Shown here: piece by piece, positions 354-62,032 of the stretch
How positions within the stretch are numbered: the first letter of the stretch is position 1
Layout of the letters: each line of letters starts with the position of its first letter
Source of the DNA: Anaerolineae bacterium
GTDB taxonomy: Bacteria > Chloroflexota > Anaerolineae > Aggregatilineales > J027
Reading direction: 5' to 3'
DNA length: 64,000 nt
Assembly (NCBI GenBank): GCA_008933735.1
Contig: WBUL01000014.1
Location: forward strand, 1 to 64,000
Translations under genes and position numbers: made by a program
The notes under the pieces: model-generated
Databases searched by the model: none
What the model was told of the DNA's origin: nothing
Seen by the model: the letters and a program-made list of their open reading frames with translations, nothing else

Positions 354-830
354 TTACTGGGTCAATAATTCGCGTCCACTGGCTTGCCAGGCACTCATCC
401 CGCCGGGGACGTCCCACAGTTGTGTATAGCCTAGCTCAACAAGTTGGCGGCTGGCTTGTTCACTCATATTGCCGGAGCGGCAGTACAGGATAATAGAAGC
501 ATTTTTGTCTGGCAAAGCAGTCGTTAGCGCATCCAGGTCATTAAAGGGAATATGGGCATCCGTGCCCTGAACTTCTCCGTCATACGGAATATGAACGTTG
601 ATGATCGTGTATTGATCCGGCTGGGTATCCAAAATGCTGGCAAATTCCTCAATGGTAAGGGTCTGATAAACACCCTGCGTATTTAGCGACTCGGTGGTGT
701 GTACCATACCCGGCATATTCGTGTTATCCATGCGAGGGGTCTCGTCCGTCTCCGAGAAGGACAGACTGATAAGAATTACGCCAACCATAACAACCAAAAA
801 TAGCAGCAATCCGGCATAGCGTGCTTTCAT
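354..830 (-). CDS. Rhodanese-like domain protein with N-terminal membrane anchor
   Basis: Hydrophobic N-terminus MKARYAGLLLFLVVMVGVIL, then rhodanese-type IILYCRSGNMSEQASRQLVELGYTQLWDVPGGMSAW with active-site Cys. Confidence 0.85.
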   Translation of the reverse strand: MKARYAGLLLFLVVMVGVILISLSFSETDETPRMDNTNMPGMVHTTESLNTQGVYQTLTIEEFASILDTQPDQYTIINVHIPYDGEVQGTDAHIPFNDLDALTTALPDKNASIILYCRSGNMSEQASRQLVELGYTQLWDVPGGMSAWQASGRELLTQ

Positions 831-941
831 GAGGGGGAATAATACCTCCGATAAAGTACCATGGGATTTTAACATCCTAACAGAAAATGATCGTCTTGCC
901 ATGCGCCAAAAAGCGCATTTGATCTTCCAGATTACACAGAA

Positions 942-2626: not shown

Positions 2627-2884
2627 TCAAACATCACTTTTCTGGGTTGCGCTTTTTAAATCCTGCACAATCTCGGTAAATTCCTCACGCGATATTTCCC
2701 CGCGTGCATAACGTTCGCTAGCAATATCCTGAGCGGAACGAGTTCCTGTCGGGTGTCCGGGACCGGCAGTGACAAACAATCCCCGCAGCACCCAGGTCGC
2801 CAGCAGTGCCAACCCACCCCAGAAGATGAACATCCACAGCAGCATCAGCCAGCCACCACTCCATACATCATGTCCATAGAACAT
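2627..2884 (-). CDS. SHOCT-domain small membrane protein
   Basis: One TM segment followed by SERYARGEISREEFTEIVQDLKSA (SHOCT motif). Confidence 0.8.
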   Translation of the reverse strand: MFYGHDVWSGGWLMLLWMFIFWGGLALLATWVLRGLFVTAGPGHPTGTRSAQDIASERYARGEISREEFTEIVQDLKSATQKSDV

Positions 2885-3042: not shown

Positions 3043-5490
3043 TTATTCAGTGACATTCACAATCATCATCATGCCGCCGTCGCTGCCGTCAGCATTGGTG
3101 GTGTGGTGGGGTATATGACAGTGCAGCATCCACCTGCCGGGTTCAGTGGCGATGAACTCAATATCAAAGCGCTGTCCTGGTGCAACATTTATCGTATCCA
3201 TACTCAACTGCTGGTCTTCGGGAATGGGAAAGCCGTCAACTGCGACAACCTTGAAAGGAACTCCATGCAGATGGATTGGGTGGGTAAATTGTCCAATACC
3301 ATACAAGCGGATACGCACCCGTTCTCCCTGCTTGACTTCAAGTGTGTCGGTTGCCGGAAAAGCCTTACCGTTAAAGGTAAAAAAGTTGGGTTCCATACCC
3401 GCCATTGGCATCGCAGCGTAGGTCATGCCATTCTCTACCCGCCATTCCGAAAGCATAATGGATACATCGACATCAGGTTGTGTAGTGTTTTCGGCAGGAT
3501 CAATAATGAATGGGGCATAGAGGCCCAGTGCAATCTGAGTATCACTATTGAAGTGTGGGTGGTACATGAAAGTTCCGGCAGGTTTGGCAACGAATTCATA
3601 GACAAAAGTCTCCCCAGGCTGGATAGGATCTTGTGTTACACCCGGTACACCATCCATCGCGTTGGGAACCTGAATGCCATGCCAGTGGATTGTTGTCGGT
3701 TCGGGGAGCTCATTGTTGAGGATGATACAAACAGGATCACCTTCAGTTACCCGGATCATGGGACCTGGAACTGTGCCATTATATGTCCATGCCGTCACCT
3801 GTACATTATTGGTGAGATGCCAGATCACAGGCCGAGCTGTTAGTTCAAAGACCTTCACCCCATCTTCCTCATGGAATTCCAGTGGCTGCCCACCGCGAGT
3901 TTCCGTTGCCAATGGAACACCTTCGCTGCTGATAGGCTCCATGCCATGTCCGCCACTGCCCGTACCTTCCATCTGGTGTCCTTGATCGGCTGCCGCGCCT
4001 TCCATTTCGGACATCATCATAGACGTCATATCCTGCAAGTCTTCCATCATGGACATCATCTCACCGGACATCTCCATCTCCATTATCATATCCATCATGC
4101 TCATCATCGCTTGCATCATGTTCTGCTGATCTTCACCGGAGGTCATCATGTCCATCATGCCCTGCATCTGCTGCATCATAGACATCATTTCGTCGGACAT
4201 TTCCATGCCCATCATCATATCCATCATCCCCTGCATCTGGGTCATCATTTCGCCGTCCCCTGGCATGTGACCCATACTGCTATGACCGGATGGAGCAGGA
4301 GTAGCGGTGGTGTCCTCGGCGGCGGGATGATGGGCATCATGGTCATCCGAGGCGGTATCCGGGCTGCTGTCGGATGAAAGTGCTAAAGCGATTTCTGTTG
4401 AGGGTGGTGCAGCAGGCGCTAATGGCGAGAAACTGATGCCATTCGGAGCCTCACCTGTTGGCACGGTGGCAATGACCTCCTGTTCGGCAATATTTACCAC
4501 AGAGATGGTGTTTTCGTATAGATTAGTGACATAAGCAAATTGACCGGACGGATCGACGACAACGCCATGCGCCCCATTGCCAGTTTCTACCGTCCCAACG
4601 AGGGAAAAAGATGCCACATCGACGATGGAAAGGGTTGTACCTGGATTATCGGGCGTTCCCTGATTTGCTACCAGGACATAGCGGTTATCAGGGGTAACGT
4701 AGACCTGCACGGGCCCGATCCCAACCTCGACTTTGCTCACGAGCGTCTGAGAAATCGTATCGACTTTCCCGAGAGCATTTTCAGCATTCAAGGAAACATA
4801 GACGAACGCGCCATCCGGTGAAAAGCCCACCTGAATAGGCTTTTCACCAACAGCAATGTCGGTGATTTTGATGTTAGTAGCGGTGTCGATCACACTCAAA
4901 GTCCCATCATTCACATTTGCCACATAGACCCGCTGCCCATCCGGGCTGGAGCGCAAGCCATGTGGATAGGTTCCCACAGGGATAGTTGCTAGCACCTCCA
5001 ACGACCCGGCATCAATCACGGTTAAACTGTTGTCTTCGCTGTTGGTCACATAGACCGTCTGGCTGTCCGGGGTAAGAATGACATGTGCAGGGTGATTTCC
5101 TGTTGGGACGGTTCCCATCACGATAAATGTGAGGGCATCAATTTTCACGGCTAGCGAGTCATGTCCACTGACGGCCCAGACACTTTTGCCATCCGGGGCA
5201 ACCTGAATATTATGGGGACCTTCGATTCCCGTCAAAGTGGTGATAACGGTGTTAGTGCCCGCATCCATCACGCTAAGGCTGTTACCCGCTTCGTTAGCGA
5301 CCCAGACCATGCCTTGCAGCACCGCCGGGCCATGATGTGCCGCGTGATCTGGAGTTGGTGTTGGATCAGATTGGAAAGGCGGCTGCCCCCTGTAAAAGGG
5401 TTCCGCCACCACCTGTGTGACGCCGTAGGCGGCCAGTGTGATAAAAACAACTGTCAGGCAGAGCAGAACTTTTATCATAGGTTTCTCCAT
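3043..5490 (-). CDS. YVTN beta-propeller / Met-rich linker / multicopper oxidase fusion
   Basis: Repeated YVTNSEDNSLTVIDAGSLEVLATIPVGTYPHG-type units; long MMDMMMGMEMSDEMMSMM linker; C-terminal Cu motifs HWHG, HPHF, HPIHLHG, HCHIPHH. Confidence 0.92.
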   Translation of the reverse strand: MEKPMIKVLLCLTVVFITLAAYGVTQVVAEPFYRGQPPFQSDPTPTPDHAAHHGPAVLQGMVWVANEAGNSLSVMDAGTNTVITTLTGIEGPHNIQVAPDGKSVWAVSGHDSLAVKIDALTFIVMGTVPTGNHPAHVILTPDSQTVYVTNSEDNSLTVIDAGSLEVLATIPVGTYPHGLRSSPDGQRVYVANVNDGTLSVIDTATNIKITDIAVGEKPIQVGFSPDGAFVYVSLNAENALGKVDTISQTLVSKVEVGIGPVQVYVTPDNRYVLVANQGTPDNPGTTLSIVDVASFSLVGTVETGNGAHGVVVDPSGQFAYVTNLYENTISVVNIAEQEVIATVPTGEAPNGISFSPLAPAAPPSTEIALALSSDSSPDTASDDHDAHHPAAEDTTATPAPSGHSSMGHMPGDGEMMTQMQGMMDMMMGMEMSDEMMSMMQQMQGMMDMMTSGEDQQNMMQAMMSMMDMIMEMEMSGEMMSMMEDLQDMTSMMMSEMEGAAADQGHQMEGTGSGGHGMEPISSEGVPLATETRGGQPLEFHEEDGVKVFELTARPVIWHLTNNVQVTAWTYNGTVPGPMIRVTEGDPVCIILNNELPEPTTIHWHGIQVPNAMDGVPGVTQDPIQPGETFVYEFVAKPAGTFMYHPHFNSDTQIALGLYAPFIIDPAENTTQPDVDVSIMLSEWRVENGMTYAAMPMAGMEPNFFTFNGKAFPATDTLEVKQGERVRIRLYGIGQFTHPIHLHGVPFKVVAVDGFPIPEDQQLSMDTINVAPGQRFDIEFIATEPGRWMLHCHIPHHTTNADGSDGGMMMIVNVTE

Positions 5491-5683: not shown

Positions 5684-6138
5684 ATGAACAGAAGACGCAA
5701 AGTGCGGCACGGAGTGAAATCTCGGCAGGTAAAATTAAACCATAAATATTTCTGGTTTGGCAGATTCGCTGCGGTCATTGTGGCTGCGCTGGGTATTGTT
5801 TTATTTACCCGCGACGATAGTACTCCCGACGACTTTGTGCCGCAGGTGATTGGTGCACCGCGCGTTGCAGTCGCGCAGGACACCTTTGATTACGGCGATA
5901 TAAGACTGGGCACAACGATTGAAACGGTATTCAAGGTGCAGAACGTTGGTGACAAAAGCCTGACAATTTTGGATGCCCCTCAGGTGGAAGTCTAGGAGGG
6001 GTGCTGACCGAAATCAAGCTGCTCTTCATGATGCATGAAGGGATGGATGGAAAGCATCGGTTTCGCATTCGGCTGCGGACAAATGATCCGATTGAGCCTG
6101 TCAAAGCGCTGACCAGTGTATCAAACCGGGTTCCATAA
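5684..6138 (+). pseudogene. DUF1573-type protein, interrupted by stops and a frameshift
   Basis: PRVAVAQDTFDYGDIRLGTTIETVFKVQNVGDKSLTILDAPQVEV then TAG-EGC-TGA; the C-terminal half EIKLLFMMHEGMDGKHRFRIRLRTNDPIEPVKALTSVSNRVP continues in another frame to TAA at 6138. Confidence 0.75.
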
Positions 6139-6222
6139 CTGCGACGCGGCTAACAGATCGGCCTGCTGACGTTCCTGACCCTCTTGGGGGGCTTTTACTA
6201 ATCCAGCATCGAGGTGTGGTTA

Positions 6223-7878
6223 TCAGGGAATTGGGCAGCGGATAGTAACCTTTGTTCCCTTCCCCGGCGCTGACTGAACATGAAGGTGTGCGCCAACAAG
6301 TGAAGCTCGTTCATACATGCCCATAATGCCGAAATGCCTTTGCCCACCTTCGGTCAGCTCGATGGCATGGCGGGGCGCCACAAAACCTCGCCCGTTATCC
6401 CGCACCGATACCATAATTTGATGATCATCAAACTGAACCGTGAGCCATATTTGGGTCGCCTCACTATGTCGCCAGGCGTTGCTCAGGGCTTCCTGAGCGA
6501 TGCGATAGATTGCAATCTCGTTCTCCGGTGTCAGGCGCTGCGGGGACCCTGCTCTTTCAAACTCAACGCGCATCTGTTTGTCAGGGTCGAGATCGCGGGC
6601 CAGCATTTGCAGGGCCGGTGTTAATCCAAGCTCCTCAAGGTAGACCGGACGCAGGGCGCGTACCACACGGCGCAAATCATCGAGAGTCTGCGTAATCATA
6701 GAACGTGTTTCCGAAACAAGCTCGGCGGCTTCGGGCTGATCATTCAGGTAAGGAGCGATCATCTGCACCCGGTGATTGAGGGCAACCAGAGATTGCGATG
6801 TCTGATCATGGAGTTCGCGGGCGAGGCGGAGCCGTTCGTCTTCTTGAGCACTCGTGATGGCACTGATGTAGTTGTGCATCCCGGTCTGCGCTTTCTGCAT
6901 CCGCTGAACCATGTGTCTTAGGGTGGCTTGCAATCGCTGGATTTCCTCAATGCCTCCCACGGGTTGGTCAATGGCGGAGAAGTCGCCCCAGTCCAGGTTG
7001 GTTGCTTGATTTTCCAGCCGCTGCAATGGATAGACAATCCGCTGGATGCCAAACCACACGGCTATGAAAGCCAGCAGCAAACTCGGAACCAGCACCAGTG
7101 GAGCAGCTTGTGTGTAGCGCAGCAGCGGGCTGAATGTTTGCACCCATTGTTCTTCCTGCACCAGCGACCACTCGTTTATAGAAAGAGGAACGGTGGTTGC
7201 AATAACTTCCTCGCCCTTCTCGTTCCTGCGAAGCTCAAACGTGCCCCCGGTAGGCAGCGCTTCCCCACCCTGAAAATAAGAAACCACCTTGCCTACCTCC
7301 GAAGGGTCGCTGTGGTAGAGGATCCGCCCATCACCACCTATCAGATAGGTGGTATGTGCCGCTGAAGCGTGTAAGCTGGATAGAATATCGGGCACGCCAA
7401 GCGCCTGCAACGATACAATGCCCACGACCGTGATTTCATTTCCATCCGGGTCCGTAACCCAGATGGCTAGGCGAGTGTCATTTTGAAAGTTGGTTATCAA
7501 CGGGACAATGCCACTGTCTGCCTCATTCACCTTGAGGATTTGCCACAGGGCATTCCAATCTGTATCTTGTGAAGACGCATTCAACACATGACCCTCTTTT
7601 GTATAGCGAATTATACCGCCATCAAAGTAGGTATTAATCCAGTCAGGGATATTGCTGACAGACAATTCTCTGAGAGTCGACCAGCGCAAGTCAATTTGCT
7701 GATTAACGCTGGCTGCTGCTCCCCGAACAAGTTGTGTGTTATGGCTGGCGAGCATCTCGCGCATCGCAGATTGGTGAAGCGCCACACTGCCCAGCGCGAC
7801 GATCATTAGAAGTATGAGAAGCGGCAGCACAAGAAAGGCGACTAGCTGGAGAGGGAGGCTAGTTAGGTAAAGTTTCAT
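6223..7878 (-). CDS. Sensor histidine kinase (HisKA_3/NarX type with extracytoplasmic sensor and HAMP-like region)
   Basis: LARELHDQTSQSLVALNHRVQ H-box, HATPase IYRIAQEALSNAWRHSEA...DNGRGF; two TM segments. Likely start MKLYLTSL inside the 560 aa ORF. Confidence 0.9.
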   Translation of the reverse strand: MKLYLTSLPLQLVAFLVLPLLILLMIVALGSVALHQSAMREMLASHNTQLVRGAAASVNQQIDLRWSTLRELSVSNIPDWINTYFDGGIIRYTKEGHVLNASSQDTDWNALWQILKVNEADSGIVPLITNFQNDTRLAIWVTDPDGNEITVVGIVSLQALGVPDILSSLHASAAHTTYLIGGDGRILYHSDPSEVGKVVSYFQGGEALPTGGTFELRRNEKGEEVIATTVPLSINEWSLVQEEQWVQTFSPLLRYTQAAPLVLVPSLLLAFIAVWFGIQRIVYPLQRLENQATNLDWGDFSAIDQPVGGIEEIQRLQATLRHMVQRMQKAQTGMHNYISAITSAQEDERLRLARELHDQTSQSLVALNHRVQMIAPYLNDQPEAAELVSETRSMITQTLDDLRRVVRALRPVYLEELGLTPALQMLARDLDPDKQMRVEFERAGSPQRLTPENEIAIYRIAQEALSNAWRHSEATQIWLTVQFDDHQIMVSVRDNGRGFVAPRHAIELTEGGQRHFGIMGMYERASLVGAHLHVQSAPGKGTKVTIRCPIP

Positions 7879-8530
7879 CGATGTCTGGTAATTGCACCAG
7901 GCCAAGTCGCGCCGCTTTCACGACAGCTTCGGTGCGACTGGCAACTGCCAGTTTTTCAAAAATATGGCGGAAGTGCCCCTGAACGGTGCGGTCGCTGATG
8001 TTCAAGAGAACACCGATGGCTTTGTTGGTCAACCCTCGTGCGGCTGCTCGCAAGACTTCCAGCTCCCGCTCACTAAGCGGTTCGTAGGGTAGCGGTGGTT
8101 TATGAGAGGCAACGACCGCCCGCATCAGTTTGGGGACGATCTCCGGATCCATTACCGATTTCCCCTCATGAACCGCCTGTACGGCATCAACGATTTCTTC
8201 CATATCGGCAGTTTTGAGGACAAAGCCATTTACGCCAGCTTCGAGTGCAGCCATGATGAAAGGGTCATCGTCGAAAGCCGTCAGGATCAGTAAGCCAATT
8301 GGCAACCCCTGCGCCCGCACCCGTCGAGCGACCTCAATCCCGCTAAAATCTGGCATCTGGATATCAAGTACAGCCACATCGGGACGATATTCCTTGATAA
8401 TATCTAGCGCTTGTTCGCCATTTTCCGCCTCAGCGATGACTTCAATTCCGGCCTTGACAAGGATCTGCTGGATGCCATGCCGAACAACCAAATGATCGTC
8501 GGCTAAAATCACACGAATGGGTCCATCCAT
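7859..8530 (-). CDS. LuxR/NarL-family response regulator
   Basis: IRVILADDHLVVRHGIQQIL receiver and LSERELEVLRAAARGLTNKAIGVLLNISDRTVQGHFRHIFEKL HTH; overlaps the kinase start. Confidence 0.93.
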   Translation of the reverse strand: MDGPIRVILADDHLVVRHGIQQILVKAGIEVIAEAENGEQALDIIKEYRPDVAVLDIQMPDFSGIEVARRVRAQGLPIGLLILTAFDDDPFIMAALEAGVNGFVLKTADMEEIVDAVQAVHEGKSVMDPEIVPKLMRAVVASHKPPLPYEPLSERELEVLRAAARGLTNKAIGVLLNISDRTVQGHFRHIFEKLAVASRTEAVVKAARLGLVQLPDIDETLPN

Positions 8531-8703
8531 AAAAAGCTTCCTCAATAGGGTTCTATATTAGAATAGCACGTAATCGGTTTACCCGACTGCGCTATTTGGC
8601 GGGGTGTCCCCAGGCCGAATAGCGGCCTCAAGGTAGTCAAAACGCGCGACAACGGATGCGAAAAAATGCGGATTAAAATCACAAGGACTGCAAATTAAAC
8701 TGA

Positions 8704-9090
8704 ATGATAGGACAAGATGGAGAAACTGCTGTGGCGCATGAGATTGCATTATCACTCCCAAGTAACGAGGCTGCGAACCGGATGACGAAGCTCCTTCACA
8801 CTGCCGGATTCCGGGTCATCCAATCTTTTGATTTACGAGTTGCCCGGTCACTGCTCCATGACTGTGCCTGTCCGCATCACGGCACAACATCCTGCAACTG
8901 CGAGTATATCGTGCTGCTGGTATATCGTGGCAACAACCCACCGCTGACTCTGGTTATTCATGGATATGATGATTTCAGTTGGTGTCTGATTGCTGACAGT
9001 TCGAGTCAACCACTTGATCCACAATTTCCAGAGGTTGTCATCCAGATATTATCACCAGAGCGTCGTGTTCTGGCATTTGAGGCGAATTAA
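8704..9090 (+). CDS. Hypothetical protein with Cys/His cluster
   Basis: 128 aa ORF with ATG start; contains HDCACPHHGTTSCNCEYIVLLVYRG; no family assigned with confidence. Confidence 0.6.
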   Translation: MIGQDGETAVAHEIALSLPSNEAANRMTKLLHTAGFRVIQSFDLRVARSLLHDCACPHHGTTSCNCEYIVLLVYRGNNPPLTLVIHGYDDFSWCLIADSSSQPLDPQFPEVVIQILSPERRVLAFEAN

Positions 9091-9241: not shown

Positions 9242-9757
9242 ATGACACGTAATCAAAAGTTGTTTGGGATCGTCGCTGTCTTAATCGTTGTACTGGCATT
9301 GGGTGCTGTATCCACTTATGCTCAAGGGCCTTATCATGATGACATGCCTTTTGGAATGCACGGCAGCATGATGGGTAATGGGCATCATGGAATGATGCGA
9401 GGCGGTGGAATGATGGTGGGCAATAACACCATGTTTGCGCTGGCCGCCGAAACGCTCGGTTTAGAGCCTGAAGCCCTCTGGAATGAGCTGCGCTCCGGCA
9501 AGAACCTGTTGGATATCGCGCAGGAACAAGGTGTAGAAACCACTGATTTGCAGGCCGCGCTGCTATCTGGAATGCAAGAACACATGGCATATATGGTCGA
9601 AAATGGCTATCTCTCCCAGGAGGATGCAGACGAAATGCTGGCCTACATGACCGAAAATATAACGGAACACCTCAGCTACATGTTCGGCGGGGGTAGGATG
9701 AACTGGGACAGCACCTCACATCCTTGCTGGGAACACTTCCAATCTGATGAGGATTAG
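9242..9757 (+). CDS. Secreted Met/His-rich small protein (DUF2680-like)
   Basis: Signal peptide MTRNQKLFGIVAVLIVVLALGAVSTYAQ, then MHGSMMGNGHHGMMRGGGMMVG and a helical ALGLEPEALWNELRSGKNLLDIAQEQG region. Confidence 0.8.
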   Translation: MTRNQKLFGIVAVLIVVLALGAVSTYAQGPYHDDMPFGMHGSMMGNGHHGMMRGGGMMVGNNTMFALAAETLGLEPEALWNELRSGKNLLDIAQEQGVETTDLQAALLSGMQEHMAYMVENGYLSQEDADEMLAYMTENITEHLSYMFGGGRMNWDSTSHPCWEHFQSDED

Positions 9758-9828: not shown

Positions 9829-10170
9829 TTGCTGTTGGGTGCCTATCGCCCTTGTTGCGGTAATCACACAGCATATCCCGACTGTAATCATGGCATGGCG
9901 GTTCTGGGTTTATTGGAATTGATGGCGTCCCAGGGCGCATCCGAAGCAGAGCTTTATCAGGCAGCATTCGCCTTTAATAGCTATGCCTTTAGGGAAGATT
10001 ATGTGATGCTGGCAGCATATTTCTCGCAAGACGATGTGCTCTGGTCAGATGTTGATCCGCGCAGTGTGTTGAGCGTTGATTACTCAAGCGGACGGTCAGC
10101 CCAGAAAATTGCTGCCCGCGTTGGGACTATTCCTGGTATGCCTGGTCAAAGTGGGAGTTGCGGCACATAA
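9829..10170 (+). pseudogene. Probable N-terminally truncated Cys-containing protein
   Basis: LLGAYRPCCGNHTAYPDCNHGMAVLGLLELMASQGASEAELYQAAFAFNSYAF... ending GQSGSCGT; in-frame TAG shortly upstream and no ATG start. Confidence 0.45.
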
Positions 10171-10210
10171 GTCCAGGATCCTCTGTTTTTGCTTCCAGTT
10201 CATTAGTCGC

Positions 10211-10828
10211 ATGAGCGATGTGAGACTAACCGACGAACACTGGACAAAAATTCGGGATTTCTTGAGACAAGACCCGAATGCCGATGTGGGAAACGAGGCA
10301 GAATGCCGTCGTTTCGTGGAAGCCGTGAAATGGCGAAGTCGCAGCGGGGCCCAGTGGCGCTTGCTGCCCGCTGGTGCGAAAATGGCGTGTGGGAACGAAT
10401 GCTTGAACATTTCGCTGACGATCCCGATATGGAAAATGGCATGGTGGACAGCACGGTGGTGCGTGCTCATGCCAGTGCCGCTGGGGCCACAAAAAAACGG
10501 CGGGGCAGCGCCACGACATCATCAAGGCGCATGATCTGACCGTTGACCTGGCATTTGAGCACCTGATCGCCGATCGCAGCTATGGCGCGAAGGATTTTAT
10601 TTTGTTGATGAACTGCACGCCAGGGGCATTGAAGTGGTCATTCCACCCAACAAAAATGCCAAAGCGCCGCGCCAATACGATGCATGGCGCTATCGGGAAC
10701 GGCATCTGATGGAGTGTTTTATTGGCAAAATCAAGTATTTTCGGCGTATCTTTTCTCGCTTCGACAAGCTGGCAAAGCGCTATCTCGGTTTCCTGCACTT
10801 TGTCAGCTCACTCATCTGGTTACGCTGA
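10211..10828 (+). mobile_element. Decayed IS5-family transposase
   Basis: MSDVRLTDEHWTKIRDFL...SGAQWRLLPA, then other frames RWCENGVWERMLEHFADDPDMENGMVDSTVVRAH and RGIEVVIPPNKNAKAPRQYDAWRYRERHLMECFIGKIKYFRRIFSRFDKLAKRYLGFLHFVSSLIWLR; frameshifts and internal gaps. Confidence 0.85.
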
Positions 10829-24459: not shown

Positions 24460-24865
24460 ATGACAATCCAATGCCCAGACGATGGAAGCGATGCTGGAAG
24501 CGGAAATGAGTGCTACGAAGCCAAAGGACGGAATTCAGGCAACAGCCGCAACGGTCACGCCAAGAAGAAAATTCGCACGTCTGTGGGAGCCGAAGCGGAG
24601 CTGGAAGACAAGATTATCACGATGTATGCCAAAGGCATGAGTACCCGCGACATCACCGACGCCTTACAGGAGATGTATGGTATGGAGGTGTCCGCGCAAA
24701 CCCTCACCACCAAGATCATGCCGCTGGAGGCGATTTACCCGATCATCTACCTGGATGCGCTGTATTTCAACCTCAAAAAGGAGCATAAAGTCGAGAGCCA
24801 GGCGGTGTATATCGTGCTGGGCATCACGCTGGACGGGCAAAGGATGTGTTAGGTGCAATAAATCG
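24460..24865 (+). mobile_element. IS256/Mutator-family transposase fragment
   Basis: EAELEDKIITMYAKGMSTRDITDALQEMYGMEVS...IMPLEAIYPIIYLDALYFNLKKEHKVESQAVYIVLGITLDG; truncated at the 3' side. Confidence 0.88.
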
Positions 24866-24874
24866 GTGTTCAAA

Positions 24875-25100
24875 TAAAGCCCACCTAATGAGCCTCGGTC
24901 TGGAATGACATTTTTAAAGAGTGGCAAAGCAAATTGAGCATATTTTTCTGGCTGGTTCGTGATGATTATCATCGGCATTGCTAAAGGTTTTAGCCAATCT
25001 ATCACATGCCGAATAAGAGGTTTACCATCTAACAAGATAAAACTTTTATCTGCTCCCATACGGCGAGATTGACCACCTGCCAAAATAGCTGCACTAACTG
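24875..25100 (-). pseudogene. mobA: MobA (molybdenum cofactor guanylyltransferase) N-terminal fragment
   Basis: ILAGGQSRRMGADKSFILLDGKPLIRHVIDWLKPLAMPMIIITNQPEKYAQFALPLFKNVIPDRGSLGGLY, then switches to antisense of the IS256 gene. Confidence 0.85.
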
Positions 25101-25104
25101 ACAG

Positions 25105-26091
25105 CTAGCCCCCAATATAATGCATTTCAATTTTTTCTTGGGTGGGCTGAGCTGTCCTTAGCTCCGAATAACGATCCGTCCGCTGCTGCCAGTGTTTTGC
25201 CAAATGTGCCTTAAGTTTGTCATCGCTGATACCACTGCGAAGCAGACCACGCAGATTTAGCCCTACTTTTGCAAAGAGGCAGGTGTAAAGCTGACCATTG
25301 GCTGAAAGTCGCAGGCGAGTACAGTTCCCGCAAAATGGCTGCGTAACAGAGGCTATCACCCCAATTTCACCTGATCCGTCCCGATAACGGTAGCGGGTTG
25401 CTACCTCACCCAGATAGCTGGCTTCAACAGGCTCAAGAGGCAGTACCGCATCAATACGCGCAAGAATTTCATGGGCTGGGACAACCGATTCCATACGCCA
25501 GTTGTTTAATGTGCCAGCATCCATATATTCAATAAACCTTAGAATATGACCGCGTTCTTTGAAATAATGTGCCAAATTCACCAGTGTATGGTCATTCACA
25601 CCACGCTGAACGACCACATTAATTTTTAACGGTGCAAAACCTGCCTGTTCTGCGGCAGCAATCCCCGCCAACACCTGCTCGACATTCGCCAAGCCGCCAT
25701 TCATGTGACGGAAAACCGCATTATCAAGCGAGTCAAGACTGATTGTAAGCCGATGTAAGCCCGCTGCTTTAAGTGCCTGAGCCTTGCGAGGCAGCAGATA
25801 ACCGTTGGTGATCATCGCCAAATCATGCAGTCCCTCTATCTGTACCAGCTTTTCAACCAGATTTTCAATGCCTGCCCGCAAGAGTGGTTCACCACCCGTC
25901 AAGCGAATTTTCTGAATCCCTAACTCAACCAAAATTTGCGCCAGGCGAGTGATTTCTTCAAATGTAAGCAGATCATCTTTTGACAAAAAAACCTGATGGT
26001 GAGCAGGCATACAGTAGGTGCAGCGGAAATTACACCGATCTGTGATGGAAATTCGCAAGTCTTGTAATGGTCTGCCCAACTGATCGCGCAT
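25105..26091 (-). CDS. moaA: GTP 3',8-cyclase MoaA
   Basis: RISITDRCNFRCTYCMP radical-SAM motif, second Cys cluster CGNCTRLRLSANGQLYTCLF. Confidence 0.96.
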   Translation of the reverse strand: MRDQLGRPLQDLRISITDRCNFRCTYCMPAHHQVFLSKDDLLTFEEITRLAQILVELGIQKIRLTGGEPLLRAGIENLVEKLVQIEGLHDLAMITNGYLLPRKAQALKAAGLHRLTISLDSLDNAVFRHMNGGLANVEQVLAGIAAAEQAGFAPLKINVVVQRGVNDHTLVNLAHYFKERGHILRFIEYMDAGTLNNWRMESVVPAHEILARIDAVLPLEPVEASYLGEVATRYRYRDGSGEIGVIASVTQPFCGNCTRLRLSANGQLYTCLFAKVGLNLRGLLRSGISDDKLKAHLAKHWQQRTDRYSELRTAQPTQEKIEMHYIGG

Positions 26092-26699
26092 TATGCCATC
26101 TCAGCCTGTAAGGGATAAACCCCTTCATTCACACGGTAGTAGCTGTGTCCCGCACAAGCGCGGCACAACGTTAAACCTTCATGGACAACCTCGCGCTCAT
26201 TAAGGATTTCTTCGCCACAAACATTGCAGTTGACCCGTATTCCGGGACGACTTATGAGCGCCTGCATAGACACTGTTAGTGTCACGGTTTGAACATCGAA
26301 CAAATCCTCAAGCGGCATCACCTGATAAGCCTCTAGCTGGCGGTGCCAACGACTGCGAGCTTCTGGTACATAGACTGCCGCTTGCTGGCGCGAATCCAAC
26401 GAGGGGCGAATACGCACGACCTGCTCTGTCTGTGTATCTACAAAAGTCGCTGCCACCTTGCCGAAATCCATCAACCGCAGCGTCCGATGCCCCAACGTAC
26501 AGCCTGTCGCAGCCGAAATCCCATCAGCGAAGCAGCCATCCGTTTCGACGAAGGTATGCAGCCGCTTGTCCTTCTGCTGATAGGGCACATGCAGCAGATC
26601 AGCCGCATACATGCCCATCCGTACCCCCAACACCTGGCGCGGGCAAAGATGGTCATGCTGGGCAATCGAGATTTGTAAAAGCCGTTCAAGCTCGGACAT
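26091..26699 (-). CDS. FmdE-family protein
   Basis: HDHLCPRQVLGVRMGMYAADLL, ETDGCFADGISAATGCTLGHRTLRL, C-terminal zinc ribbon CNVCGEEI...CRAC. Confidence 0.88.
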   Translation of the reverse strand: MSELERLLQISIAQHDHLCPRQVLGVRMGMYAADLLHVPYQQKDKRLHTFVETDGCFADGISAATGCTLGHRTLRLMDFGKVAATFVDTQTEQVVRIRPSLDSRQQAAVYVPEARSRWHRQLEAYQVMPLEDLFDVQTVTLTVSMQALISRPGIRVNCNVCGEEILNEREVVHEGLTLCRACAGHSYYRVNEGVYPLQAEMA

Positions 26700-26700
26700 C

Positions 26701-26850
26701 TTACTTTTCTCCCTCGCCTTTTAGACTTTGCCGAAATTCATGAATACCTTGTCCGAATTCTTTTCCAAGACGACTGATGCGCCCCACGCCAAAAAGTAAA
26801 ATGATGACCGTCAAAATCAAAATCAGTTCGGGTGTACCGAGGGCAGGCAT
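26701..26850 (-). CDS. tatA: TatA-type Sec-independent translocase subunit (49 aa)
   Basis: Reverse strand MPALGTPELILILTVIILLFGVGRISRLGKEFGQGIHEFRQSLKGEGEK; short TM plus amphipathic helix; absent from the supplied ORF track. Confidence 0.88.
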   Translation of the reverse strand: MPALGTPELILILTVIILLFGVGRISRLGKEFGQGIHEFRQSLKGEGEK

Positions 26851-26912
26851 GACTTAATCTCCTAACGTCAAGAGGTGGTGCTGATGACCAGCACCACCTC
26901 ACTCACATCCAT

Positions 26913-29900
26913 TTAGACCTTTTCGAGCTTAACCTGTGTGTCATAAAACACCGCACTGCCACCCACTGGATCAACCAGGGTGGTATTTTGGAGGTAGGGA
27001 TCAATCCGCATGGCTGCATTACCATGAATACCCTTCACGCGGCGTTCATCCCCTTTAATGGTCTTGCCATTAATTTCAAAGTCCACGCCACCATACGACC
27101 AGTGACCAAAGCCCAGCGCAAAGGCAATGACACCGGGACGAATACCCTGAGTGGTCTTGACCTTGCCAATCATGGCTTTGGTTCTGCCATTCAGCAAATC
27201 CCATTCACCATCAGGATTGGTGGGGGAAATGATGCGAACTTCGTCACCATCTTCTAAATCGCGGGCTTTCGCATCCTCTTTGTGCATGAGGACAAAGTTT
27301 TCAGGCAGAACTGCCAGCAGCCAGTAATTGGAAGCGGTGCGGCTCTTGGTCTGGGCAATTTCGCGGTAGGTGATGAGGCGCAGGTCAAAGCCATCCGCTT
27401 CATCGGCCAGTGGATTCCCTTGCACATCAAAGGGACCCGGCAAATACCTGGCATAGCCTGCCAGATGTTCGCCTGTCATCGCACTCTTGGTGTCATAGGT
27501 CTTTTCCTGGTAGAGATTGACCATCGTGCCAAAGGGATTACCCGCCAGTTCCAGATCAAGCGAGAAGTAGTTTTCGCTGGCTTCGGGTAGTTCACCCTGC
27601 TTGTACCCTTTAGAAAAGGCCTGGAAGCGTCCGCCGCGATTAAGGACATACACCACTTTCTTCCATAGGTCCCCGGTGATGGCTTCCCAGCGCTGGGCAT
27701 CAAAAACGCTGGCAGGTAGATGTTGGCGGGCTGCCATGAAGATTTCCATTTCCACATCGTCAGCATCTGGCACGGCATCTGAGCCATCTTCCTTTTCACC
27801 AAAAGCCAGATTTGCCATCATCTTGAGGTACAGGTCATCAGGGTGATTAAAGTCGCCATAATCCCCAAATCCACCTGTACCGAAACCGGGCAGTTCCATC
27901 TTTTCCGCCACTGCCAGCAGCACCGCTTCCAGCGACATCGGCGTTGGTTGACCAAACACGGTTACTTCTGGCACTAAAGGCGCAATCGCAGGGTTGCGTA
28001 CAGGTTGAATTTTCTGCGGCACACTCGGATGGCTGCCATGAAATTCCCAACGTTCAAGGTACATAGTGTCAGGGAAGATGTAATCCGCATACATGCTGGT
28101 TTCCCCAATGAAGGGATCAATGGCGATAAACAGCGGCAGTTTTTGCGGGTCTGCCAGGATGGGAATATTGGTGTTCCCGGCGGGCAGGGAGTAGACTGGC
28201 GACCCCATATAGAGCATCAATGCCTTGATGGGGTAGGGATAAGCATCCCCAATGGAGGGAACAATTTCCTGATAGATGTCGCTGGAGAGGGGATACCAGT
28301 TGCGTTTGGCAGGGTATCCATCCCGTGCAAACAGCGTGCTTTTTTCGTATTTTTCGTTATGGCGAATAATACTTGTCCCGAAGGGAGCCATCTTGCCATT
28401 GGCTTTACTGATGTCGTAGGGCTGTCCTTTCTTGCTGCCATTCGCTGAATAAGTCGAGGCTTTAATCAACCCACCTGCATGATCATAGTTGCCAATGAGC
28501 GCATTGAGGGTATACCAGGCGTAAACATTATAGAAACCGTTGGTGTGTTGGCTCACACCGCGATGAATATCGGCAACCGCCCGTTTGCCATGACTGGTAA
28601 ATTCAGCAGCGATTTCCTCAAGGTCGTGGGCATTCACACCACAGATTTCCGCCCATTCTTCCAAAGTATGTTCGTGGGCAGAATCGGCGATGATTTGCAG
28701 CCCTGACTTGACCGTGAAATCCCCCAGTTTAACGTTGTCTACCAACAAGTCACCGCGTACAGCCGCTTCAGGGTCAGTCGCATACGGATCAACCGCTACA
28801 GGTTCACCATCAACCAGAGCAACGAAGTAATCAAATTCATAGGTCTTTTCGGGATCAGTCGAGAGGGGTCGTTCCTCTTTTTCCTTCAAGCCAATCTCAC
28901 TGGCACGTAGGAATTTGCCTGGCTTGCCATCTTCATCCAGCTTGACCAGCCAGGTCGCTTCTGTCCAGGTCGGTTCAGCAATCGCTGTGGCCGCCGCTTT
29001 GTTGGCAGCCGAGAGGTAGAGACTGTCATAACGCCCGTTATCAATCACCCAACCGATCAGGGCTAACGCCAATGCCCCCTCTGTCCCTGGTTTGGCAGGC
29101 ACCCACTTCCAGGCTTTGGCAGCCGTCTTGGATAAACGTGGATCAACCACAGCATATTTCATGCCATTGTAAACAGCGTTGGTGGTAATGCGTGGAGTAC
29201 GCAGGGGCGGACCATAATTCCCCTCAAACGGAGATGCGCCCACAAAAATGACAAACTCGCTGTTGCCAACATCACCCTGCCAGTAGAACTTGACACCCCC
29301 CGTCCACTTGCCATCAGTGAACTGCTCTGACATCGCTTTGCCAGTAAAATACAGGCTGCCCTGACAGACGGTGGTGTGTCCATGCGCGTTAGTAGTGCCA
29401 TAGGCTCCCAAAAAGCGGCTGATGATGTCTTTACGGGCATCTTTTAAGCGTCCCCACGCAAAGACAAATTGGTTATTCTTGGGTCCTAAATCGGGATAAT
29501 CAGGATCAATCATCTTATCAAGGTGATCGGCAAAGGTCGTCTTGAATTCTTCGATTAGAGCCAGCTTTGCCTCTGCATCCTTTTCATCCTGTATTTTCTT
29601 GACGGCATCTGCCATTTGTTTGGCAATACCAGCATCAGTCAGCGCATAAGACTCACGCAAGCCAGGAACGGGACCCTCTCCAAACAGATCGCCACCTTCC
29701 ACGATTTCGGTGATTGCCTGCTCAAAGGAGATGGTTTCCCATTTGTTTTCGCCGCGTTTCGTGCCAGGCTTACGTTTGAGGACGCTCACCAAACGATAGG
29801 GATCATAAACACTTTGTAGGCCTGCCTGCCCTTTGGGGCAAATTGCGCCTTCAACGGTGCCAACCTCAGCCGCAGGCGTATCATAGGCAAGATGAGGGTA

Positions 29901-30203
29901 CATATTCATGGGATGAAAGGGGCTGCCATCAATTTTGGCAGCCACGCCATTCAGCAGTTTCACCTTGATGCCACAGCCGGTATTGCACTGCAAGCAGGAG
30001 GTGAAAATATGGTTATGGGGGTCTGCCAGTGGATAGACGAATTCGCCTTCAGCCAAGGCTTCTCGCGCCTGGATAAGTCGGCTAAAGATAGGCAGACTGC
30101 CTAGAAACGCGGCGGCTCCACCCACAATGGCACTCGCTTTGAGAAAGTCGCGCCGTGAGAGATCGCAGCTATCAGGTTGAGTTACTTCAAGTTTATCGCT
30201 CAT
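26913..30203 (-). CDS. Molybdopterin oxidoreductase catalytic subunit (TtrA/SrdA/PsrA-like), TAT substrate
   Basis: TAT motif [31 protein letters not shown] 4Fe-4S motif, [18 protein letters not shown]. Confidence 0.9.
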
Positions 30204-31350
30204 GAGATAAGTCCTGTACTTTCTTGAAAAACGGCAGGCGGTCAAGCCCAATCAGGAATGCCAGCGTCGCCAGCCCCATAATTCCAACTGTGACTGACCA
30301 CTCCATTAGGCTGGGGAAGTATTCAAACGACAGATGCGGACCGCTAAAAGCAGTGGCTAAACCTTCCAGTTCGGGAATGGTCAAGGCTGGAAAGACAATA
30401 TTGGCTCGTGCTGCGGCGAAACCGACCAATACCAGCAGCCCCATGACACCTGCCCACAATCTCTGTCGGGAGAGATTTGGGATTGCCAGCACGATGACAG
30501 GAAGCACTGTGCCGAGAATGATCTGAATAATCCAGAACGCCCACCAATACTGACCAAACAACACTTCGTTGATAGCATCCACGTTTTGGGGCACCCCACT
30601 GTAGAGGGACATGGAGAAGTCTGCCCACAAGATATAGGTTTTCACAATCAGCATGACGATGACCGTGATACCCAACACCCGCAACTGCTGTCCTAGACGG
30701 GGATCATCCTCTGGCCCAAAGAAAGCGAGGATCACCAGCAGCAGGGCAAAACCTGTCGCGGCAGAGAAAATCGGAAATTGGGCAGGTAATAACCCAACAT
30801 GCCATACCAAACGACTGGCATTGACCCCCAACAGCGCACCCACACCGCCACTAACAAAAATCGCCATGATAAAACCAACAACCATCAGTAATTTGAGCGC
30901 GAGCGGTGGTTTTTCCGGTGAACGGAAAACCATCCACAAGGTTAACAAAATCACCATACCAAAGATGGTGTAACCCCACACCATTTGGGCAAGGAGTGAG
31001 CTGAAGTTGGGGTTGAGGTAAACTTTCCAGATGCGTTCCATATGCCCCAGGTCAAATCCGATGGACATCAGGGCAGCGGGCAGTGTAACCATTGCACCCC
31101 ACAACGCATATTTACCAACCCCTTTGAAAAGCGGAATTTCAAACAAATAATCCAAGGTCGCCACCATATATGAACCACTGGCTACCCCAGCGAAGAATAA
31201 ATACATCGCCACCCACAGCCCCCAGGTTACAAAGGAGCCATAATTAACCTCACGTTCCCCAATAAAAAGTCGGCTGTAAAATCCATACAAGCCGAGAACC
31301 ACTGCGAGAACGCTTAAACCATAAATCGCTTTTTTGGTCATGATCAGCAT
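30193..31350 (-). CDS. nrfD: NrfD/PsrC-like membrane subunit
   Basis: Multi-[36 protein letters not shown]. Confidence 0.9.
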
Positions 31351-31355
31351 CCTTT

Positions 31356-32270
31356 CTAAACCAGGTAGTACACACGCGGTTCTGTGCCAAGTTCTTCCTT
31401 CAGCCGAATCACATTGGGTTTGGCACTCATCTCGGCAACCAGACTATGGGGATCGTTGGCATCGCCAAACAGGGTGGCACGACCAATACAGGTGGTGACA
31501 CAGGCAGGCAGCTCACCAACACGGACGCGGTGTAAGCAAAAATGACATTTACGGGCATTGCCAATCGGTGAGGAATGACCTTTACGTGAACGGGCTTCGC
31601 CATATTCAAAGTTTGAGGCGCGTTCATAGGCTTCTGCGGTGTCCATACCTACGATGAGATTGTCAGCAACAGGTAAATCTTCGGTGTAGGTCAGACCAAA
31701 ATCCGAGGTACGCGCACCGTAGGGGCAGGCCGCAATACAGGCACGGCAGCCGATACACTGATCGTAATCCACAACCACCACACCTTCGGCATTAGTGTAG
31801 GTTGCTTCTACGGGACAGACTGGTGTACAGGGTGGATTCTCGCACTGCATACAGGGGCGGGGTGTGAAGCGGCGGGTCACATTGGGATACTCGCCAAATT
31901 CTTCTTCCAGCACTGGGCGGTAAACAACACCTGGGGGCAGTTTGTTTTCTGCAACACAGGCAATCGTACAGGCATGACAGCCTACGCATTTTCGCAGGTC
32001 AATGACCATGATCCAGCGGCGATCTTCGACTGGCTTTTGCAAAGCACGCAGCAGCTCAATCCGCATCCGTTCCAGAACATCCATCTGAGTCGGATCGTTA
32101 TTGACTGCTTGCAGTGCCGCTATCTGGGCTTCATAGCTGGCTAAAGCTGTTTCTGGATGGGCTTCTAATTCATCCAATGCTGCCAACGCCACTGCCGCAC
32201 CCGTCAAGCCCGCAGCCCCACGTAAAAAATTACGCCGGGTCACCTCTTTTACTTCGGCTGAAGTGTTCAT
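31356..32270 (-). CDS. 4Fe-4S electron-transfer subunit (PsrB/TtrB-like) with TAT signal
   Basis: [61 protein letters not shown]. Confidence 0.93.
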
Positions 32271-52016: not shown

Positions 52017-55000
52017 CTAGTGTTTTGTCGAATCATAGAGGGGCCCCTCACCGATTGGCACGGCGCCGCTGCCTAGATCGTGAGCAACACCCACTTCAAC
52101 CACGCCGGTGCAGGCACCGTCCGTTCCATCATAGGCCTGGAAGCGGATGTAGTACACGCGACCATTGCCCTTGGCAGCGCGTTCGGCACGCACCAGAGCC
52201 GTGCTGGTACCAATGCCGCTCGCATCAGGGCTGGTATTGCCATGACCATGGCCTTTGACGGGTTCGTCTTGCCTGATTGAAGTAATGGTAATGGTCACTG
52301 TGCCACCATCCGGATCGGTCACATTGACGATCGTCACCGGCTGCATACTGTGATCCGGCGGCCACAAGACAGGTATCAGGGGGGCAGCCAATGCACAGGT
52401 GGGTTTATCATTCACCGCGTTGACGGTTATATTGACTGTCGCTGTGACGCTGTTGACCATGCCGTCATTCGCCACATACATGAAGCTGTCCGCGCCGTAG
52501 AAATCCGGGTTGGGGGTGTAGGTGAGGTTTGGCGCAACACCGCTCAGAGTACCCTTCATGGGCTGGGCGACAACGATAAAGCTCAATACATCCCCGTCAA
52601 GGTCCGAACCGCTCAAGGTTACAGGCACTGCCACATCTTCATTCGTAACGATACTAAGGGCATTAGCAACCGGCACATCATTCACAGGATTGACTGTGAT
52701 GTTTATGGTTGCCGCAAGGCTGTTCACAATGCCGTCATTAACTATGAAGGTAAAGGCATCCGGGCCAAAGAAGTTCGCGTTGGGGGTGTAGGTAAGATTC
52801 GGCGCAGTCCCGCTCAAGACACCATAGGCTGGCTGGCTTTGCACGGTGAAGGTCAGGACGGCCCCTTCCGCATCCGATCCTGAAAGGGTAATCGCAAGAG
52901 CGGTATCTTCGTCCATCGCCAGCGACTGAGCGTTCGCCACCGGGAAGGCGTTCACCGTAATCGAAACCGTTGCAACCGCACTGCTCGCGCCGTTCGTATC
53001 AGTGACGATGTAGGTGAAGGTGTCGGTGCCCCAGACATCCACATTGGCAGTGTAGATCAGATTGGGGGCTACGCCGCTAAGCGAACCGCCGAAGGGTGTG
53101 CTGATGACCTCGTAGGAAAGGGCATCTCCATCCACATCGGTGCCAACGAGGGTCACAGGCAAGGATTCGCCAGCATTGACACTTCCTGTGATGTTCTCTG
53201 CCACCGGCGGATCGTTGACAGCCAGGATAGTGATGCTTACATCTTTAGAGACGGTGACCGTCCCATCACTTATGGATATGGTGAAACTGTCCGTACCATT
53301 GAAATCCGGGTCAGGTGTGTAGTTAACACCGGTCGCTGTCTGCACTACACTGCCGTTTGGCGGATCAGACACGTTGACAGTCACGGGATCGCCATCTACA
53401 TCATCGATATCAAACGTGATATCGACCGGGGTATCTTCATCCGTAACGACCGGGTTGATGGTAATGCTCGGAGCATCGTTGACCGCTTCGACAATAATAA
53501 TGATTGTGGCGACATTGGATGAGGCACTACCGTCGGAGGCAACATACGTGAAGCTTTCGGTGCCGTTGTAGTTCAGATTGGGGGTATAGGTGAACCCGCC
53601 ATCAGCCGCGAGGACAAATTGACCATTCGCTGGTGGGGTCACCAGCGTGGCCGTGAGGGTGTCACCCTCACTGTCGCTGTCATTTGCTAACAGTCCCTGA
53701 ACTGCCGGAACGGTCAGAACAGTATCTTCATTGACTGTGTACTCATCGTCGGCCGCGATGGGCGGTGTATTCTGCGGCACATCACAATAGAGGGGCAGGA
53801 CAGCACCTTCCAAAGAGACATTGCCCAGTGTAGTTGGATCACGCAAAGGCGGGTAGACCACGCCATTGACCTCAGGGAAAATACACGCATCGTCAAACTT
53901 GCCGAACTGTGCCAGCATCAGCGAAACCGCAGGTGCGGCAAAGGATGTTCCTGCAACATAGAATTTGGTGCCGAGTTGGTAGCCCGCACCACGCGCCATA
54001 ATATTGCCATCATGTGAGAAAAACCAGATCTGGTCGGGATTGTTACCCAGTGAGGCACTCACCGCAATCGTTTCGGGCCACCGCGCTGGGGCGAGCGGCT
54101 CGCCGGGGTAGGCTGCGCCAAGCACCGACGCCCAGGGGCGGTAGTTGCCGCTGGAAACGACTGCAACGGTGTTGTAGGGGCTGCTGGGATTCGCGCTTTC
54201 GATCAGATACCCGCGCAGCAAATCCCGGAGAGGCGAGGTATCGGTGGTGTCGTTCAGATAACCGATTATGATTTCGGGAATATCTTCGGTAGAAACGCCG
54301 GTCAATGCCAGATAATCGCCAAGATCGATCACAATCGAATCTGTGGCGCAGGTTGAAGCAATAGGCCGCGCCACCACCGAACGGGTCACACCGTCGGGCC
54401 CCTTGACCTGCCAGCGTATATCCGCGCCGTTGAACACCACCTCAAAGGCATTGGCGTGTCGCCCCGGCAGGAAGTGCGAGTTCTGCCCACGATTGGCGGG
54501 ACTCGGAATGAATTTGTTGGGTCCATTCGTGGAGATATATACCGTGCGAGCATTCGCGTTCCGGTAGCCAAAACGCGCTACATAGTTACCATTCCCGGCT
54601 TCGTAAACACATTCCAGGATGGGTTCCACAGCCTGTGTAGCGGCGGGCAGGGGGGCGCTGCACGGCGTACCGTACTTAGATGCGACGGCTGTACGCAAGA
54701 CACCGTCGGGGCCTCGAAGTTTCCAGGTGATACTCTTGTGGCCGAAAAGGACTTCAACAAAGCCTGTGTGACGCCCAACTTCAAATACTTCGGGTTGTTC
54801 GGGGTAGCTGGCTCCTATAAAAACATTGTTGTAACCGATTGCAGGGATAGTCACCGAGCGTGTGTTGTCGCTCTCAAACCCAAAACGTGCATACCGCTTG
54901 CCATTGGGAGCATGGTATACACATTCAAAAAAAGGCACGACCGGCGCGTTGGTCACTTCTGCTGAACCCTGGTTGGAGGCGTTCACGGCGGCGATAAAGG

Positions 55001-55712
55001 AGTCGAAGTTGAAACCCGTTACAGGGTCGGAACACGGGATAAACGCCAGACTCATGTTGATGGTCGTATTGGTTACACCCTGCGACCGCAGGAGCTGTAC
55101 CCGGCTGTCGATTGCATTGGCGATATTAGCGACCCGGTAGTTGATGCTTGGAGACGAGATGTCAATCGTTTCGATGCGGATGCCGGACATATTCATCGTG
55201 GCGGCAAGCTGGGTAAGCACCTCTTGAACCTCAAGCAAGTGTAGACCTTCATCCACGATGATCACCGCCGACTGCGCTTCACCGTACCCGACACCGGTTG
55301 GGAGATTAATGCTGTTGAGGAGGTCGCTAAGCCAGCTCGGATTCGCAAGGTTGTTCAGGATTTCATTGGCGACGACATTGGGGTCGGCGTAGTTCTGACC
55401 CGAAAAGTTAAAACCTTGTCCAGACAAATTGAAGCCTTGTCCCGATAGGTTAAAGCCCTGTCCCGACAGGTTGAAACCCTGTCCCGACAGGTTAAAACCC
55501 TGTCCAGAAAAATTGAAGCCTTGCCCAGAGAAATTGAAGCCCTGTCCAGAGAAATTGAAGCCTTGCCCACCGATCAGTTGGGCGGTAACGGCACATTCTG
55601 GTTGCAGAGCAAGCTGTGTACTGGAGGTTGCAGATATTTGTGATTTGCCTGGAATGAGGAGGAGTAACACACTCAATAACACAACAAGGACGTGCCCGCG
55701 ATGCTTCTTCAT
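52017..55712 (-). CDS. Secreted surface protein: heptapeptide repeats, S8-like (subtilase) region, five tandem-95/cadherin-like repeats
   Basis: Signal peptide; (GQGFN[FL]S)x8; VIIVDEG, VVSSGN, AGTSFAAPAVSLMLAQF; repeats such as SGVAPNLTYTPNPDFYGADSFMYVANDG. Confidence 0.85.
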   Translation of the reverse strand: MKKHRGHVLVVLLSVLLLLIPGKSQISATSSTQLALQPECAVTAQLIGGQGFNFSGQGFNFSGQGFNFSGQGFNLSGQGFNLSGQGFNLSGQGFNLSGQGFNFSGQNYADPNVVANEILNNLANPSWLSDLLNSINLPTGVGYGEAQSAVIIVDEGLHLLEVQEVLTQLAATMNMSGIRIETIDISSPSINYRVANIANAIDSRVQLLRSQGVTNTTINMSLAFIPCSDPVTGFNFDSFIAAVNASNQGSAEVTNAPVVPFFECVYHAPNGKRYARFGFESDNTRSVTIPAIGYNNVFIGASYPEQPEVFEVGRHTGFVEVLFGHKSITWKLRGPDGVLRTAVASKYGTPCSAPLPAATQAVEPILECVYEAGNGNYVARFGYRNANARTVYISTNGPNKFIPSPANRGQNSHFLPGRHANAFEVVFNGADIRWQVKGPDGVTRSVVARPIASTCATDSIVIDLGDYLALTGVSTEDIPEIIIGYLNDTTDTSPLRDLLRGYLIESANPSSPYNTVAVVSSGNYRPWASVLGAAYPGEPLAPARWPETIAVSASLGNNPDQIWFFSHDGNIMARGAGYQLGTKFYVAGTSFAAPAVSLMLAQFGKFDDACIFPEVNGVVYPPLRDPTTLGNVSLEGAVLPLYCDVPQNTPPIAADDEYTVNEDTVLTVPAVQGLLANDSDSEGDTLTATLVTPPANGQFVLAADGGFTYTPNLNYNGTESFTYVASDGSASSNVATIIIIVEAVNDAPSITINPVVTDEDTPVDITFDIDDVDGDPVTVNVSDPPNGSVVQTATGVNYTPDPDFNGTDSFTISISDGTVTVSKDVSITILAVNDPPVAENITGSVNAGESLPVTLVGTDVDGDALSYEVISTPFGGSLSGVAPNLIYTANVDVWGTDTFTYIVTDTNGASSAVATVSITVNAFPVANAQSLAMDEDTALAITLSGSDAEGAVLTFTVQSQPAYGVLSGTAPNLTYTPNANFFGPDAFTFIVNDGIVNSLAATINITVNPVNDVPVANALSIVTNEDVAVPVTLSGSDLDGDVLSFIVVAQPMKGTLSGVAPNLTYTPNPDFYGADSFMYVANDGMVNSVTATVNITVNAVNDKPTCALAAPLIPVLWPPDHSMQPVTIVNVTDPDGGTVTITITSIRQDEPVKGHGHGNTSPDASGIGTSTALVRAERAAKGNGRVYYIRFQAYDGTDGACTGVVEVGVAHDLGSGAVPIGEGPLYDSTKH
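55401..55568 (-). repeat. 21-nt coding tandem repeat, 8 copies
   Basis: Encodes eight consecutive GQGFNFS/GQGFNLS heptapeptides. Confidence 0.9.
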
Positions 55713-56870: not shown

Positions 56871-56900
56871 GATTTAAAAGCGCGTACACTGTAGAGGAAA

Positions 56901-58922: not shown

Positions 58923-58932
58923 GGAAAATGTC

Positions 58933-59889: not shown

Positions 59890-59906
59890 TTGAGAAGGAA
59901 CGAAGA

Positions 59907-61355: not shown

Positions 61356-61374
61356 AATAGAAGAGGAGACACGG

Positions 61375-62025: not shown

Positions 62026-62032
62026 GTGCCAA

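Follow-up and report, generated by a model that had tools for sequence, protein, structure and literature searches.

The multicopper oxidase CueO has three domains and carries a Met-rich insert near its T1 site, and the Csp copper storage proteins are four-helix bundles lined with Cys. Among the two-domain multicopper oxidases, the type B enzymes are known as homotrimers in the published classification (PMC13151041). Type-B CjMCO oxidizes phenols, acting as a laccase, and the full-length enzyme binds two extra Cu, which have been attributed to its His-rich N-terminal region (PMC13151041). Work with model sites shows that tris-Met binding stabilizes Cu(I) and that weak sites are amplified by many Met (PMC11840665). 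Here we describe a protein that joins a β-propeller of the YVTN/YncE type, a Met-rich domain, and a type-B-like oxidase in a single chain. It is encoded within a 64,000-nucleotide stretch of DNA from an Anaerolineae bacterium (the window).

Organization of the fused protein

A first-pass annotation, made from the sequence of the window, placed a propeller, a Met-rich stretch, and a multicopper oxidase in one polypeptide. The domain-architecture search and the structure prediction carried out here confirm this order of parts (Table 1). Pfam recovers a YNCE propeller at residues 118-355 (E 1e-21) together with the pair Cu-oxidase_3 (559-667, 2.5e-41) and Cu-oxidase_2 (697-799, 1e-31), and NCBIfam reports a YVTN repeat (E 1.4e-46). 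The AlphaFold2 (AF2) model, for which ten sequences were used, runs from the strands of a seven-bladed propeller through four helices in the Met region to two beta domains; block mean pLDDT is mostly 85-96 in the propeller and about 50-93 in the two-domain beta region. The best Foldseek matches are 1l0q (YVTN) and the two-domain oxidases 3g5w, 3gdc, and 2zwn. Within its own genome assembly (4.0 Mb, 81.5% complete), the fused ORF is the only match to Cu-oxidase_3.

Table 1. Features of the fused protein and its neighbors in the window (residue numbers refer to the fused protein)
Feature	Position	Strand	Basis
Whole fused protein, 815 aa	3043..5490	(-)	ORF with ATG start, without internal stop
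N-terminal export signal / membrane anchor helix, residues 5-21	5428..5478	(-)	sequence; AF2 helix 5-21
Seven-bladed YVTN/YncE-type beta-propeller, 58-360	4411..5319	(-)	Pfam, NCBIfam, AF2, Foldseek
Flexible Pro/Ser/Asp/His-rich spacer, 361-403	4282..4410	(-)	pLDDT below 50 from 373 on; alignment
Met-rich domain, 404-512, 41 Met; helices about 410-427, 433-449, 455-470, 476-502	3955..4281	(-)	composition, AF2
First ~43-aa Met-rich hairpin unit, 415-457	4120..4248	(-)	repeat analysis
Second ~43-aa Met-rich hairpin unit, 458-500	3991..4119	(-)	repeat analysis
Cupredoxin domain 1, about 545-685; HWH 602-604, HPH 644-646; T1 position without Cys	3436..3858	(-)	Pfam, alignment
Cupredoxin domain 2, about 686-815; HPIHLH 737-742, HCHIPHH 790-796, T1 Cys 791	3046..3435	(-)	alignment
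Small SHOCT-domain protein, directly downstream of fusion	2627..2884	(-)	Pfam
DUF1573-like gene fragment	5684..5995	(+)	by resemblance; frame broken after ~5990
HisKA_3 histidine kinase, upstream, same strand as fusion	6223..7905	(-)	Pfam
LuxR-type response regulator partner	7859..8545	(-)	Pfam

A LuxR-type regulator and a HisKA_3 kinase accompany the loci of most relatives, the window included. The DUF1573-like gene beside the fusion (5684-6230, +) is either a pseudogene or an assembly error; intact DUF1573 genes are present near some relatives. On the minus strand, two MacB/FtsX-type permease ORFs lie in tandem at 997-2350, the second of only 110 aa and apparently truncated, and by eye similar permease starts occur near two other loci (L068 and L069). 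The gene at 354-902 (-) codes for a Rhodanese-domain protein that has a membrane helix at its N terminus and a short stretch containing Met. On the plus strand, a 128-aa Cys-containing protein (8704-9090; CxCPxHGTxxCxC, no Pfam family) has homologues near the oxidase loci L024 (4970-5479) and, by eye, L027 (7269-7622). It is followed by an exported small protein with a Met/His/Gly-rich N-terminal part and no Pfam or NCBIfam match (9242-9757) and by a transposase-like fragment recognized by eye (10076-10534). Farther along the window are an exported 1231-aa protein with exact GQGFNFS repeats at its start (52017-55712, -) and, by eye, molybdenum cofactor and oxidoreductase genes and a membrane hydrogenase-/formate-hydrogenlyase-like cluster (24664-32270, - and 56253-63550, +). 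Rfam and tRNA scans of the window found nothing.

The oxidase half

The oxidase half contains two cupredoxin domains by Pfam, AF2, and alignment. All four of its Cu-ligand motifs (HWH, HPH, HPIHLH, and HCH..H) can be aligned in 35 relatives, as the first-pass description of a two-domain-style oxidase with a complete set of motifs had held. The T1 Cys is confined to domain 2, where it forms part of HCH, and domain 1 reads Y-H-P/S-H. Since the T1 Cys is present only in domain 2, the aligned motifs mark this half as type-B-like. The loop that leads from the T1 His to the axial position (HCH-x3-H-TTND..GG[LM]) is longer than in the other aligned two-domain relatives, and at the axial position after it the fused protein has Met 807 where close relatives have Leu. 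Membership in the CueO or PcoA families can be rejected: the CueO model scores 104.5 against a cut-off of 525, and copper_res_A scores 171.5 against 478.95. In other Chloroflexota (L096, L101-L104) the same oxidase core is seen by eye with an N-terminal plastocyanin-like domain in place of the Met-rich or propeller parts, a further modular fusion.

The Met-rich domain

The extreme Met content first noticed over about 80 residues is real. The densest 80 residues (from 415) contain 37 Met, a number with a chance of ~1.6e-37 at a background of 2.5% Met. Over residues 404-512, 41 of 109 positions are Met, with no Cys, 2 His, 20 Asp/Glu, and 0 Lys/Arg. Spacings of 3, 4, and 7 residues between Met are favored, as in helices; per helix, a Met face is modestly indicated (shuffle p 0.013 to 0.105). 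When the domain is modeled alone with four homologues, four helices are predicted (block mean pLDDT about 75-85, pTM 0.55). The original term "linker" fits in that a Met-rich stretch does lie between propeller and oxidase. It does not fit the predicted structure, in which the segment reads as a helical domain with flexible ends rather than a plain linker.

Foldseek gave no significant fold match for the Met-domain model, and Pfam yielded no family for the window's copy; weak matches of relatives' Met domains to helical Pfam families were taken as composition. ATG codons read as CAT on the other strand, and this alone accounts for a His-rich ORF there (3871-4377, +). Identity with a Csp copper storage protein can be dismissed, because 404-512 is free of the Cys that line the Csp bundle. 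In sequence, the protein shares one feature with the Met-rich cuprous oxidases, a functional class: a Met-rich segment attached to a multicopper oxidase.

The segment is also internally repetitive, as had been reported, although to a moderate degree: the period is 43 aa with 23 of 40 residues identical, a self-identity reached in 7 of 5000 composition-preserving shuffles. At the DNA level the two units are 70% identical, and no long tandem array was detected; thus the repeat is not recent, and a recent minisatellite or tandem repeat is ruled out. This bears on the idea that the segment might be a spacer of low complexity that repeat slippage has lengthened and that has no copper function. Such an origin would suit the short repeats, the strongly varying length of the segment, and its near absence from some fused homologues. 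We nevertheless regard it as improbable, given that the region is not a recent DNA array, that the sequence of the unit and its predicted helices and turns are kept among five homologues, and that short Met motifs precede the oxidase across the clade.

In nearly all close unfused oxidases the core is preceded by a short N-terminal tail that resembles M-x-G-M-x-M, and in one unfused oxidase (L045) a Met-rich extension runs to several hundred residues. For these reasons the Met-rich segment is assigned to the oxidase side, where it was expanded; in one lineage it is enlarged into ~43-aa units predicted as helical hairpins. Among relatives, the densest 80 residues contain from 6-7 Met, in the fused proteins L023 and L028, up to 38, in L025. 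A long Met domain is therefore not needed for the fusion.

The propeller half

Both marks of a YVTN/YncE propeller, YVTN repeats and a seven-bladed fold, are found in the N-terminal half by Pfam, NCBIfam, AF2, and Foldseek. Each blade contributes one His, Gln, or Asn (H93, H136, H177, Q220, Q262, H308, and N350), located just before the inner strand, within the two positions that follow a conserved Pro (replaced by Ala in blade 6). Conservation was scored over 26 propellers. In the 23 close propellers H93 is kept in 91% and the other six residues are invariant; H136, H177, and H308 hold also in distant propellers of Burkholderia, Rhizobiaceae, and Methylocystis.

Nitrous oxide reductase, which combines a propeller with a cupredoxin, offers an analogy by which this half might be a copper enzyme or electron-transfer module that exchanges electrons with the oxidase. 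The ring that contains conserved His is compatible with such a role, as is an NCBIfam match to L-NosZ (clade III nitrous oxide reductase) at E 8e-33. Even so, we consider it very improbable: the L-NosZ score of 113.7 bits lies far below the cut-off of 700, so identity as L-NosZ is rejected and the match is explicable by general YVTN similarity, and the C-terminal half is itself a multicopper oxidase whose motif set is complete. A search with the L-NosZ family gave no match in the class and none in the controls either. The "electron-donor handling" that had been suggested for the protein finds no specific support.

Distribution of fused and split forms

Fused proteins are present in six distinct Anaerolineae/Chloroflexota genomes: that of the window and those represented by L023 (= G009), L028 (= G006), L025, L026, and L030. 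Strong matches occur in 19 of the 299 genomes of a class sample, nearly all as separate genes, and in a phylum sample of 399 genomes the fusion is seen only in the window's own genome. Thus, the fusion is real but narrow in distribution. In several split relatives the two genes adjoin, and propeller/oxidase pairs lie close together in L027, G119, G224, G294, and G086; an "open frame" of 964 aa in G086 was rejected as a further fusion because the loci show two ORFs. Partial forms also exist. L004/L065 has the Met domain and oxidase without the propeller, and for L004 this looks like secondary propeller loss, as part of the spacer is kept. L029/L068 has the propeller and Met domain without the oxidase. 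(The L008 sequence is cut by a contig end.) The oxidase-core tree contains 4 label changes, of which starred branches force 2, and does not settle the number of fusion origins. A search for fused relatives on plasmids gave no record that matched 80% of the query at a single location, and no relative was found on viral contigs. Because most relatives encode propeller and oxidase separately and two fused homologues have so few Met, the earlier description of a "self-contained" enzyme is too strong.

Copper genes and the proposed function

In 5 of the 17 Chloroflexota genomes examined, CopA-type ATPases are encoded near the loci (L025, L065, L069/L070, L073, and L074/L075), for which the chance is about 2e-5 if an assumed rate of 2% is expected per locus. 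Further Chloroflexota loci have DUF305, HMA, PCYCGC, cupredoxin, or DUF326 genes nearby, and L070 has an ORF assigned as CsoR-like by reading its sequence. Propeller homologues at 53% identity are found on plasmids of Deinococcus, next to a copper P-type ATPase, CueP, a four-helix copper-binding protein, and DUF305, and of Cryobacterium, next to a heavy-metal P-type ATPase, a multicopper oxidase, CcdA, and DUF3105. In Rhizobiaceae the propeller, oxidase, cytochromes c, and copper proteins are close together. The first 16 kb of the window, which starts at a contig end, showed no copper genes; the same genome has two CopA matches over the cut-off, both on other contigs, and DUF305 is absent from this 81.5% complete assembly. 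Copper handling, as the first-pass annotation proposed, is well supported by the genes beside relatives of both halves (CopA, CueP, CsoR-like, HMA, DUF305, and DUF326).

Since these relatives lie beside copper-export genes, the most likely function of the fused protein is copper detoxification, by an enzyme that brings its own copper trap. It is probably an extracytoplasmic Cu(I) oxidase for copper tolerance, in which the Met domain would recruit Cu(I) and the propeller would be a copper-locus partner. The copper setting is strongly indicated, and the mechanism is plausible. In the sequence of steps that we infer, the Met-rich helical domain would collect the Cu(I) that exporters such as CopA release outside the membrane and would keep a high local supply near T1. 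The exported type-B-like oxidase, expected to be a homotrimer, would then use O2 to oxidize Cu(I) to the less harmful Cu(II). The propeller, encoded in most relatives by a separate and often neighboring gene, probably uses the conserved ring with its His residues either to bind copper or to dock the oxidase. More specifically, the propeller could be a previously undescribed extracytoplasmic protein for copper binding or copper delivery, with its His/Gln/Asn ring at the blade starts, that passes copper to the partner oxidase and is fused to it in some Anaerolineae via a new Met-only helical Cu(I) reservoir to give a one-chain device for capture, storage, and oxidation; this extended version is tentative.

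Against the Cu(I) oxidase reading stand the lack of copper genes in those first 16 kb and the placement of both CopA matches on other contigs. The Met number among fused homologues also ranges widely, from 6 to 38 in 80 aa. Moreover, as CjMCO oxidizes phenols, the substrate cannot be read from the sequence. The protein could instead be a laccase-type oxidase of phenols or of Fe/Mn, its Met stretch loading copper cofactors or acting as an oxidant sink and its propeller serving as an envelope anchor or protein-binding scaffold. This is unlikely, although a characterized type-B enzyme is a laccase (PMC13151041), YVTN propellers occur in archaeal surface-layer proteins (1l0q), and L023 and L028 have few Met. 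It is opposed by the copper-efflux genes that, in several phyla, accompany relatives of each half, and the Met-only, Cys-free, acidic composition points to copper.

The fusion is direct evidence that propeller and oxidase work together, and it identifies a partner enzyme for an uncharacterized propeller family that several phyla have in their copper loci. Its Met region is an extreme natural candidate for a Met-only, Cys-free Cu(I) domain. Close relatives differ in how long this region is, and such variation would allow a direct test of the unsettled part that Met-rich segments play in multicopper oxidases.

Comparison with known systems

By both sequence and fold, the type-C oxidases 3g5w and 2zwn are among the solved oxidases closest to the fused protein, but their domain 1 carries HCH and their domain 2 carries HDH, whereas its Cys lies in domain 2. 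The type-B enzymes SLAC and CjMCO share with it two cupredoxin domains, four ligand motifs, and a T1 Cys in domain 2 only. In CjMCO, however, the N-terminal metal-binding region is His-rich; the segment before the oxidase core of the fused protein is Met-rich, has many more residues, and is attached to a propeller. The comparison with the Met-rich insert of CueO made in the first-pass annotation is fair as an analogy, since in both cases a multicopper oxidase bears a Met-rich segment and the setting is one of copper efflux. It does not extend to the architecture, because CueO has three domains and an insert near T1, whereas the segment described here is much larger and lies N-terminal to a two-domain, type-B-like core. 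Csp resembles the Met domain as a concept, four helices with sulfur ligands, but uses Cys, and there is no significant fold match. The propeller has the seven-bladed fold and repeat sequence in common with 1l0q, YncE (3vgz), and TIGR03866, yet its TIGR03866 score (220.7) is below the cut-off (287.3), and 1l0q has none of the His/Gln ring in the aligned stretches.

The propeller/Met-rich/oxidase architecture might have proved common and already characterized. In the open literature, outside of which many subscription papers lie, we found no published description of it, nor any account of copper resistance in which a propeller and an oxidase form a pair. The fusion is an arrangement of known parts that is itself new, as are the size and helical repeat form of its Met-only domain and the occurrence of the propeller, with its conserved ring, as a recurrent partner in copper loci.
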